Below are positions 25,910 through 28,434 of a stretch of 35,559 bases of DNA, piece by piece. The notes under the pieces were generated by a model. It was given only the letters and a program-made list of their open reading frames with translations. It searched no databases and had not been told where the DNA came from. How positions within the stretch are numbered: the stretch's first letter is position 1; each line of letters opens with the position of its first letter. A program made the position numbers and the translations under genes. Source of the DNA: Burkholderiales bacterium (lineage in GTDB: Bacteria > Pseudomonadota > Gammaproteobacteria > Burkholderiales > JAEUOS01); NCBI GenBank assembly GCA_947473125.1, contig CANJDH010000046.1, positions 1-35,559 of the forward strand, written 5' to 3'.

Positions 25910-26692
25910 ATGACGCTCGATCTACGCTTGCCCAAGGTCTCTGCGCGGTTCATCCCGGTGTGGCGTCGCAACTTTCTGGTCTGGAAAAAGCTGGCGGGCG
26001 CCTCCATCCTCGGGAACATCGCTGACCCGATGATCGCGCTGGTGGCCTTCGGCTACGGGCTGGGCAGCCTGCTCCCGCAAGTCGACGGCGTACCCTACAT
26101 TCAATTCCTGGCAGCCGGCACGGTCTGCATGAGCGCGATGAATGCTGCTACATTTGAAGCCATGTACTCGGCGTTCTCGCGCATGCATGTGCAACGCACC
26201 TGGGACGGCATCATGAATGCGCCGGTTGACCTTGATGATGTGCTGCTGGGCGAGCTCGTCTGGGCGGCTACCAAGAGCTTTATGAGCGGATTGGCCATCA
26301 TGCTGGTGGTGTGGGCGCTTGGCCTCGCCAACGGGTGGACGTCCGTGCTCATTTTGCCGACCGTTCTATTGATCGGATTGGCTTTCGCCGGCCTTGGCCT
26401 CATCATCAACGCGCTGGCGCGCGGCTATGACTTCTTTCAGTATTACTTCACCCTGGTGATCACGCCCATGGCATTCATGAGCGGGGTGTTCTTCCCGACC
26501 GCCCAGTTGCCGGCGTGGCTGCAGGCGGTGGGTCAAGTCCTGCCCCTTACCCATGCAATCGAATTGGCCAGGCCGCTTCTCTTGGGCAAGGTGCCGGCTA
26601 CGCCCCTTCTCAATATTGCCGTGCTGATTGCGTACGCGCTGGCGGGCGCCTATGTGTCAACCGTGTTGACCCGCCGTCGCCTGCTCGCCTGA
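25910..26692 (+). CDS. ABC-2 exporter permease, NodJ-like
   Basis: 260-residue membrane partner of the preceding ATPase. Six hydrophobic segments can be picked out between residues ~28 and 255, and the ABC-2 type signature near the fifth (FMSGVFFPTAQLPAWLQAVG) is clear. The N-terminus begins with a short cytoplasmic stretch (MTLDLRLPKVSARF). The ATG at 25910 is nine bases after the ATPase stop, so they form one transcription unit. The gene converges with fxsA. Confidence 0.92.
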   Translation: MTLDLRLPKVSARFIPVWRRNFLVWKKLAGASILGNIADPMIALVAFGYGLGSLLPQVDGVPYIQFLAAGTVCMSAMNAATFEAMYSAFSRMHVQRTWDGIMNAPVDLDDVLLGELVWAATKSFMSGLAIMLVVWALGLANGWTSVLILPTVLLIGLAFAGLGLIINALARGYDFFQYYFTLVITPMAFMSGVFFPTAQLPAWLQAVGQVLPLTHAIELARPLLLGKVPATPLLNIAVLIAYALAGAYVSTVLTRRRLLA

Positions 26693-26747: not shown

Positions 26748-27191
26748 CTAGCGCAAGCGCGACTGGTCGTCCTTTACCTCGCGAAACTCGCCTTCAATCA
26801 CGTCGTCATTGGCGGCCTGCATTGGCGCGGCAACGGGGGAGATCACACGGCCAGGAAGAAGCAAAATTACAAGGGCCACAACATCCGACAGTACCCCCGG
26901 AAACAACAGCAGCAATCCCGCAAAGAAGGCCCGCGCGCCAGCCAGCAAGGTCCACAGCGAACCCACCATGAAGCGCGCATCGCCGCCGGCCATGCCGCGC
27001 AGGGAACGCCCAAACGTTTCCTTGGCGCGCAACAGCAACCAGATGCCGGTGATGGCGGCGGCCATCAGCCACCACAGGTAACGGTCGCCAAATAGGCGAT
27101 AGAGATACAGGTCGAGCAACAATTCGGCAACTGGCAGGCTCAGTAAAATCATGGGCAACCAGCGAAACACCGTTGAAACCAACTGCGGCAT
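26748..27191 (-). CDS. fxsA: FxsA family membrane protein
   Basis: 147-residue small inner-membrane protein. Four hydrophobic segments are visible (about residues 12-30, 39-54, 77-96 and 100-115), with the family pattern LLLLFPGVLSDVVALVILLLPGR and a C-terminal cytosolic IEGEFREV motif. FxsA is named from Escherichia coli, where excess protein relieves phage T7 exclusion by the F plasmid; its normal function is not established. The ATG at 27191 is only 14 bp from the divergent cutA start, so its promoter must lie within cutA. Confidence 0.88.
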   Translation of the reverse strand: MPQLVSTVFRWLPMILLSLPVAELLLDLYLYRLFGDRYLWWLMAAAITGIWLLLRAKETFGRSLRGMAGGDARFMVGSLWTLLAGARAFFAGLLLLFPGVLSDVVALVILLLPGRVISPVAAPMQAANDDVIEGEFREVKDDQSRLR

Positions 27192-27205: not shown

Positions 27206-27538
27206 ATGGATGACGTGATTGCCATATTGACCAATGCCCCGGATGAGGCGCTTGCCCGGCATATTGGGGTGACTTTGGTGGAACAAAAGCTCGCGGCGTG
27301 CGTCAATATTCTAGGCGCTTGCGAGTCGGTGTACCGATGGCAGGGCAAAGTGGACTCGGTGCGCGAAATTCCGCTTCTCATCAAAACCACGCGCAGCCGG
27401 TACGCCGCACTTGAAGCTTCATTGCTGAAACTCCATCCCTACGACGTACCTGAGATCATCGTGCTCCCCATCGATGCTGGCTTGCCCGCGTATCTCGACT
27501 GGGTGCGCACAGAAACCTTACCGGACATCCCATTGTGA
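27206..27538 (+). CDS. cutA: Divalent-cation tolerance protein CutA
   Basis: 110-residue CutA1-type trimeric protein with the signature LAACVNILGACESVYRWQGK (residues 31-50) and the IKTTRSRYAALEA helix. It is the full family length. It is linked with copper tolerance in Escherichia coli, though the molecular role is unsettled. It overlaps the following dsbD-like gene by four bases (start GTG in the stop region), the same gene pair as in Escherichia coli (cutA-dsbD), and is divergent from fxsA. Confidence 0.95.
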   Translation: MDDVIAILTNAPDEALARHIGVTLVEQKLAACVNILGACESVYRWQGKVDSVREIPLLIKTTRSRYAALEASLLKLHPYDVPEIIVLPIDAGLPAYLDWVRTETLPDIPL

Positions 27539-28434
27539 TCAATGCATTCAGAAACGCCATCGTTGCGCTTGCAGGGAGCCTGCTGCTTGTCGGTATGGCA
27601 TCAGCGACGCCCGTCAAGGCCGAACCTGAATTGCTGGATGCCGCCGCCGCCTTCATGTTCTCGGCGCGCATGAAAGACGAAAAAACCATTGAAGTGCGCT
27701 ACGCCATTGCACCGGGTTACTACCTGTATCGCGAGCGATTCGCGTTTGTGGTCGATGGGGCGACACCGGGGCAACCGCGTATCCCGCGCGGCAAGCCGAA
27801 ATTCGACGTCACCTTTAACAAGACAATGGAAACCTTTCGCAAGGAAGTCGTGGTGAGCATTCCCTTGAAAGAGGTAGCGGCTGGGGCGTTCCAACTCAAG
27901 GCCACGTCGCAGGGTTGTGCCGATGCAGGCGTGTGCTACCCGCCAAATGAACAGATTGCTCAGTTTGGCAACGCCAGTGGGAGTTTTTCCGCCAAACCGG
28001 GCGCGGCAACCAGCGCGCTACTCAAATCGCCAGCATCGGGCAACGCAGCGCCGGGCGCAAACGCCAAGACCAGTCCCCTTTTCGCCCGTGTGACCAACAT
28101 CGACGACGTGGAGCAAAAGATCAAGTCCGCAGGGCGCATTGCCTTGCTGGATTTTTACGCTGACTGGTGCGCCCCCTGCAAGCAGATGGAACGCGTCACG
28201 CTGGCCGACAAGCGCGTCAAGGCCAAGCTTGCCCAGTTCGAAGCTTTGCAAGCCGACGTGACGCGCAACACGCTTGAAGACAAGCTGCTGCTCAAGAAAT
28301 ACAAACTCGTCGGGCCGCCCGCCATCGTGTTCTTCGACAAGGCTGGACAGGAAATCCCGGGTTTGCGGGTGGTTGGTTTCGAGCCCCCAGAGAAATTTCT
28401 GCAAACGCTTGAGCGCGTTCTGCGGGTTCCCTAA
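27535..28434 (+). CDS. dsbD: Periplasmic DsbD-like protein: alpha domain fused to gamma thioredoxin domain, no membrane domain
   Basis: 299 residues starting at GTG 27535, which overlaps cutA by four bases. After a signal peptide (about residues 1-29, ending near SATPVKA) comes the DsbD alpha domain with its cysteine pair C128 and C134 (GCADAGVCYPP). An Ala/Pro/Ser linker (about 150-185) leads straight into the gamma thioredoxin domain with W211-C212-A-P-C215 and a GPP cis-proline region (260-262). Normal DsbD is about 570-600 residues, with eight membrane helices between these domains that carry electrons from cytosolic thioredoxin. That whole beta domain is missing, yet the frame is intact. 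The product is predicted to be soluble in the periplasm and would need a separate reductant such as a CcdA-type protein. Confidence 0.9.
   Translation: MINAFRNAIVALAGSLLLVGMASATPVKAEPELLDAAAAFMFSARMKDEKTIEVRYAIAPGYYLYRERFAFVVDGATPGQPRIPRGKPKFDVTFNKTMETFRKEVVVSIPLKEVAAGAFQLKATSQGCADAGVCYPPNEQIAQFGNASGSFSAKPGAATSALLKSPASGNAAPGANAKTSPLFARVTNIDDVEQKIKSAGRIALLDFYADWCAPCKQMERVTLADKRVKAKLAQFEALQADVTRNTLEDKLLLKKYKLVGPPAIVFFDKAGQEIPGLRVVGFEPPEKFLQTLERVLRVP

Follow-up and report, generated by a model that had tools for sequence, protein, structure and literature searches.

A gene directly downstream of cutA in a bacterium of the order Burkholderiales encodes a derivative of DsbD that consists of the two periplasmic domains, alpha and gamma, and lacks the eight-helix membrane (beta) domain. 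The gene lies in the 35,559-nucleotide stretch of DNA analysed here (the window), and a homologue with the same architecture occupies the same locus in another genus of the family. Beyond the original prediction, which had described the missing domain, we find that the gamma domain carries a thioredoxin-type site, that the lack of full-length DsbD goes with the presence of ScsB, and that relatives keep either the alpha domain alone or nothing at the locus.

Domain architecture of the alpha-gamma protein

The gene stands in the cutA-dsbD arrangement, encodes both periplasmic domains with the four cysteines C128, C134, C212 and C215, lacks the beta domain and has an open frame, all as originally predicted and with the residue numbering upheld (Table 1). 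The reading frame is uninterrupted from the GTG start to its end and is also open for 27 codons 5' of the GTG (a frame of 326). The DsbD_N family (PF11412) matches residues 31-143 with 99.9 bits against a cut-off of 25, and thioredoxin-like families match residues 190-295, whereas DsbD_TM has no Pfam match in the 299-residue protein, which thus contains no stand-alone CcdA-type or ScsB-type membrane domain. Relative to a full-length relative of 602 residues, the deficit in beta-coding sequence is about 0.9 kb.

Structure comparison with Foldseek relates the alpha domain to the N-terminal structures of E. coli and Neisseria DsbD (1l6p, 3pfu and 1vrs) and the gamma domain to DsbD C-terminal structures (2fwh and 2fwe), with the alpha-gamma complex 1vrs matched in both halves; a sequence search of the PDB agrees with these matches. 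The AlphaFold model (mean pLDDT 86.5), computed from an input alignment that contained full-length proteins and in which some linker columns pair with beta residues, comprises two confident domains and a low-confidence linker. This linker of about 30 residues has pLDDT below 50 over nearly the whole of residues 148-178; the alignment with full-length DsbDs that was used to view it held four wrong-strand frames and served for the linker only. The signal-like start, a hydrophobic run at residues 2-22 recognized by reading the sequence, coincides with a helix at residues 2-22 in the model. The product is a soluble fusion, in line with the original prediction, and is probably exported. Since the beta domain is missing, the protein is not expected to move electrons across the inner membrane, and by the same reasoning should itself be unable to take them from cytoplasmic thioredoxin.

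Table 1. The alpha-gamma gene, its parts and its neighbours, in window coordinates
Feature	Position	Strand	Remarks
FxsA-like membrane protein, divergent from cutA	26748..27191	-	29.8 bits (curated cut-off 40, not reached); same place in G001
cutA	27206..27538	+	Overlaps the alpha-gamma gene by 4 bases (at the cutA stop)
Alpha-gamma DsbD-derived gene without beta domain	27535..28434	+	299 aa, GTG start; homologue with the same architecture in G001
Probable Sec signal peptide	27535..27606	+	Residues 1 to ~24; hydrophobic run, by reading
Alpha domain (DsbD_N)	27625..27963	+	Residues 31-143; Pfam, Foldseek
Alpha cysteines C128 and C134	27916-27918 and 27934-27936	+	CxxxxxC pair
Linker where full DsbD has the eight-helix beta domain	27976..28068	+	Residues 148-178; pLDDT, alignment with full-length DsbDs
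Gamma domain, thioredoxin fold	28102..28419	+	Residues 190-295; Pfam, Foldseek
Gamma site C212-A-P-C215	28168-28179	+	Also Q217, A237, V259

The NCBIfam model for DsbD (NF001419) scores 220 bits, below its curated cut-off of 330, and the thioredoxin model TIGR01068 scores 37.5 bits, below its curated cut-off of 96.8; in both sequence and fold, the gamma domain is nearest to DsbD gamma. We do not file the protein as DsbD because it lacks the beta domain and falls short of the NCBIfam cut-off; judged by its sequence, it is a DsbD-derived alpha-gamma variant.

Conservation of the architecture and its rarity

The original prediction had named related genomes as the place to look for the same architecture, and it is indeed found, at the same locus, in one of them. 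A search of 60 genomes, comprising the genome of the window (G000; a draft of 209 contigs, 97% complete) and 59 relatives, identified a homologue in another genus of the same family (G001; 92% complete), with 55% identity over residues 16-296 and a frame of 301 codons that yields 298 residues from the first ATG or 278 from the methionine preceding the signal-like run. The gene order in G001 is the same: the FxsA-like gene on the minus strand, then cutA and the alpha-gamma gene on the plus strand. The other three genomes of the family, from a single genus and 84-90% complete, gave no alpha-gamma match in this search. Next to cutA in two genomes of the family, G003 and G004, is a gene related to that of the ABC-transporter permease at 25910-26692 of the window, and no alpha domain was found within the 3.3 kb read at the cutA loci.

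Among 399 genomes of the order, 209 had a match at a cut-off of 1e-25, and among the matches listed (down to about 110 bits) only those of G000 and G001 span alpha to gamma in one stretch. A sample of 398 genomes from the phylum, searched at an E value of 1e-30 that distant homologues would escape, produced matches in 13, with the sole one-stretch match in G000 itself. Likewise, none of the 67 loci of a separate scan, which catches close relatives only, had alpha joined to gamma in a single frame that lacks a membrane domain. Four matches of about 250-280 residues with a C-terminal thioredoxin were rejected as rhodanese-thioredoxin fusions. None of 1702 matching plasmid records covers 80% of the query. 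Sixteen of the 20 plasmid rows listed (H5-H20) are matches to the alpha domain, about 115 residues at 42%, on plasmids of Escherichia, Klebsiella, Enterobacter and Acinetobacter; one of these (H5) sits under a bleomycin-resistance annotation. No report of a natural alpha-gamma protein was recognizable among the titles and abstracts listed from an open-licence library.

Reduced forms at the cutA locus and their origin

Genes encoding DsbD_N only, with neither beta nor gamma, occur at ten loci in other families of the order (L100, L101, L102, L171, L181, L182, L185, L197, L198 and L199). All ten are in genomes that possess ScsB and lack full DsbD, and thus represent a recurrent cut-down DsbD. 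A TlpA/ResA-like gene follows in all ten and cutA lies directly upstream in eight (the exceptions being L102 and L199), while aroQ was matched in eight and accB in nine, some of the loci ending early. Two further loci from ScsB-containing genomes, L214 (G015) and L215 (G025), have lost DsbD altogether, so that the TlpA-like gene comes directly after cutA. The cutA locus thus presents a graded series of full DsbD, alpha-gamma, alpha only and nothing. A different kind of variation is seen in nine full-length DsbDs that carry two tandem alpha domains before the membrane domain (L030, L166, L168, L170, L173, L177, L183, L184 and L037); the tandem copies of L030, L037 and L183 sit in different parts of the alpha tree.

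In the tree of alpha domains (76 rows; the bootstrap had yet to settle, and two of the alpha-only rows sit on very long branches), the G000 and G001 proteins are sisters (96/82) inside a group that otherwise consists of full DsbDs from other families, the forks around this group having support of 90/88 and 89/87, not starred. All 11 alpha-only rows fall outside this group, six of them together (87/86). A common origin of the alpha-gamma and alpha-only proteins is therefore disfavoured, and separate losses are favoured by these sequences but not proven. The gamma tree (52 rows) again pairs G000 with G001 (99/97). An alignment that mixed alpha and gamma pieces in the same columns was discarded.

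Divergence of the gamma domain

The gamma active sites of the two alpha-gamma proteins read CAPCKQ and CGPCKQ. In contrast, among 46 gamma domains from the order, all have glutamate after C-x-x-C-x and none has proline in the motif, which is CVSCKE in 32, CISCKE in four, CVACKE in three and different again in the remaining seven. These domains belong to full-length proteins whose loci were selected for their similarity or position, and are thus not a random sample. Four gamma residues are common to both alpha-gamma proteins and absent from all 46 full-length DsbDs at positions where one residue occupies more than 75% of the full-length rows: P214 (serine in 41 full-length proteins, alanine in four, threonine in one), Q217 (glutamate in 46), A237 (leucine in 41) and V259 (phenylalanine in 43, tyrosine in three). 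The same filter applied to alpha against 57 alpha domains revealed no shared residue with zero full-length occurrences; the two positions that passed it, A36 and N95, have residues that occur in three and four of the 57 full-length proteins, respectively. The known alpha-gamma proteins number only two, and their common gamma signature is therefore taken as a single event.

The branch lengths agree with this asymmetry, the stem of G000 and G001 measuring 0.34 in gamma versus 0.086 in alpha. In the difference between gamma and alpha identity, G000 and G001 rank third and fourth lowest of 52, the two lower values belonging to long-branch rows. The residues that tune Cys-461 in E. coli, given in PMC3961690 as Asp-455, Glu-468 and Gln-488, correspond in the PDB alignment to D206, E219 and Q239; all three are kept in G000, and G001 has glutamine in place of Glu-468.

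The set of 46 leaves out two duplicate cuts and loci L033-L099, which came from a pattern scan. Among the latter, L033-L037 have CVSC or CVTC, and L040 and L041 have CTDC. CAPCKQ is found in two full-length DsbD-like proteins from candidate division KSB1 (L038 and L039), and CLPC in a full-length one from a planctomycete (L043); the scan patterns included WCAPCKQM, so that these three cases give no frequency. The CxPC-KQ motif is not exclusive to beta-less proteins, and beta domain and motif can coexist.

Membrane donors and the ScsB association

A full DsbD encoded elsewhere in the genome, which the original prediction had marked as a point to check, was not found in the draft with DsbD_TM at E values up to 1: the only match is a ScsB-like protein on a different contig (C49) from the alpha-gamma gene. 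This 749-residue protein combines DsbD_N (65-185), DsbD_TM and Thioredoxin_7 and, by reading, has all six expected cysteines as pairs in alpha, beta and gamma. At E 0.001 its sequence matches a single PDB entry, 6c29, which bears the deposited title of a putative metal resistance protein and which we take to be the ScsB alpha domain of Proteus mirabilis. Given that the only DsbD_TM protein has its own alpha and gamma, a split gene with beta encoded elsewhere was rejected. Directly 3' of the ScsB-like gene is an AhpC-TSA/redoxin-type gene (L032:2773-3378), a candidate ScsB client. A ScsB-like transporter is also present in G001, and hence in both alpha-gamma genomes. G000 further encodes a DsbC with a CGYC site, and ScsB-like and DsbC genes are both found in G003 and G004.

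Across 66 genomes, full DsbD is present in 45 and missing in 21, and a ScsB-like protein occurs in 20 of the 21 genomes without full DsbD versus two of the 45 with it (G028 and G263). For this table, full DsbD was defined by a PF02683 score above 190 bits and ScsB-like proteins by a score of 45-85 bits in a long frame that also matches PF11412; DsbD_TM frames that were weaker or shorter and had no DsbD_N (e.g., in G032, G312, G017, G023, G031, G036, G038 and G053) and an 821-residue frame with a weak PF11412 match (G085) were not counted as ScsB, and two pieces at contig ends in G395 were taken as one split ScsB-like gene. Three of the first 60 genomes were omitted to shorten the list (G054, G057 and G059) and nine were added by choice (G060, G067, G148, G223, G312, G085, G316, G395 and G263); with these nine removed, the counts are 14 of 15 versus one of 42. 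The one genome with neither full DsbD nor a counted ScsB (G002) is 84% complete and has a fragment only. Fisher's p is very small but ignores kinship, by which the association is structured, and we rely on the counts: in related lineages, ScsB goes with the lack of full DsbD. Among the 21 genomes without full DsbD, 12, all of which have ScsB, retain an alpha frame that lacks beta and does not exceed 360 codons; in G000 and G001 it is alpha-gamma, and in the remaining ten gamma gave no match. Beside a full DsbD, an extra short alpha frame was seen in three of the 45 genomes (G049, G039 and G026).

Functional predictions and alternative explanations

In DsbD, electrons pass from tmDsbD to cDsbD to nDsbD, the last being the hub to DsbC, CcmG and DsbG, as described in PMC7347389; ScsB keeps ScsC reduced, according to PMC8900818. 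Because the beta domain is missing, gamma would need a donor in trans, and we propose ScsB in this role because, of the two donor classes searched, it alone is present in both alpha-gamma genomes. We suggest that, in an ancestor of G000 and G001, a normal cutA-linked dsbD lost its beta-coding region, and that the product is exported and acts as a soluble two-domain thiol relay. Gamma, with its CxPC site, would be reduced by a different inner-membrane transporter, for which the ScsB-like protein is the likeliest candidate. Alpha would then receive the electrons over the flexible linker and would still provide the surface that reduces DsbC-type partners; the path would thus run from ScsB through gamma and alpha to the client. 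We hold this relay, with ScsB as its donor in trans and DsbC-like proteins as partners, to have a little less than an even chance of being correct. Retention of the clients would fit with the unaltered alpha domain, and a switch of donor with the altered gamma domain. We infer here the export, the electron donor, the direction of flow, the substrate and the adaptive nature of the gamma changes. Several observations speak against a relay fed by ScsB: ScsB-like proteins have their own alpha and gamma, which leaves no obvious need for a further relay; ScsB and DsbC seem to suffice in G003 and G004, which have no alpha-gamma gene at cutA; CAPCKQ occurs in the full-length KSB1 proteins as well; and the alpha-gamma and ScsB-like genes are not neighbours. 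More tentative still is the extension of this idea, namely that ScsB was taken up as the carrier and DsbD turned into a soluble adaptor, with gamma rebuilt into an acceptor of the thioredoxin type for docking to a foreign transporter and alpha retaining its client list.

Free thioredoxins typically have a site of the CxPC type, as gamma does here; the protein also lacks a membrane domain, and no redox gene was seen next to it. These features would suit a free-standing periplasmic oxidoreductase that has no dedicated donor and shuttles, oxidises or isomerises disulfides with the help of other Dsb proteins or small thiols, in which case gamma would have changed to suit the new job. We consider this unlikely, if still a serious competitor, because alpha, the donor to DsbC-type partners, has no shared departure from full-length DsbDs, suggesting that the reducing output was kept, and because a ScsB-like donor is at hand in both genomes. 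Somewhat less probable again, though also a serious competitor, is a decaying remnant, in which ScsB made dsbD dispensable, beta was lost first, alpha-gamma is on its way out and the gamma changes reflect relaxed constraint. The graded locus series, the co-occurrence of all 12 beta-less forms with ScsB and the faster divergence of gamma than alpha speak for such decay, but two genera at 55% identity have both kept the open frame, the signal-like start, the four cysteines and the two domains, and the identical proline and glutamine in the two proteins are not scattered changes.

The original prediction had offered a separate CcdA-like protein as a feeder, which is the weaker version of the idea of a donor in trans. 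G000 does encode a 240-residue PF13386 protein (contig C36), but its gene adjoins a HemN-like gene (named by reading), and the 3.6 kb inspected there showed no redox gene. In G001 (92% complete), which shares the alpha-gamma gene, PF13386 yields no match above the cut-off, whereas both genomes have the ScsB-like transporter. We regard this small protein as an improbable substitute for ScsB. Least credible of all is an assembly deletion in a normal dsbD: the genome is a draft in many contigs, but the independent genome G001 has the same architecture and locus, and the two proteins have gamma-specific substitutions in common, so that the alpha-gamma gene can hardly be an artefact.

Relationship to known systems and implications

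The protein resembles DsbD of the E. coli type in its alpha and gamma domains by sequence, fold and tree, in its linkage to cutA and in both periplasmic cysteine pairs, and differs from it in lacking the beta or any membrane domain, in having four of six cysteines and in a gamma site of the CAPC/CGPC-KQ rather than the CVSC-KE type. Like CcdA, it represents a reduced version of the three-domain scheme and would depend on partners in trans, but it is the opposite half: CcdA, as presented in PMC4460558, is beta alone, and this protein is alpha and gamma only. With ScsB, an alpha-beta-gamma protein (PMC8900818), it shares the domain kinds alpha and gamma, without the membrane domain that the local ScsB-like protein has. 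The DsbD_N-only proteins of related families are likewise beta-less and occupy the same locus, but have no gamma in frame, are followed by a TlpA/ResA-like gene and have alpha domains outside the fork that includes G000 and G001. In laboratory constructs of the DsbD periplasmic domains, alpha-gamma exchange has been studied with isolated domains (the 1vrs complex); those are engineered, whereas the present protein occurs in nature and its gamma site is altered.

The described classes, DsbD, ScsB (PMC8900818) and CcdA (PMC4460558), each keep the beta membrane domain. A natural protein with the two periplasmic domains only indicates that the module can come apart the other way. Because the change is limited to gamma, it points to residues with a possible role in docking to beta, and the loci with full DsbD, alpha-gamma, alpha only or none form a comparative series for the replacement of a transporter and the fate of its clients. 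If DsbD has indeed become an adaptor to a foreign carrier, ScsB could serve DsbD clients while their binding sites stay unchanged.
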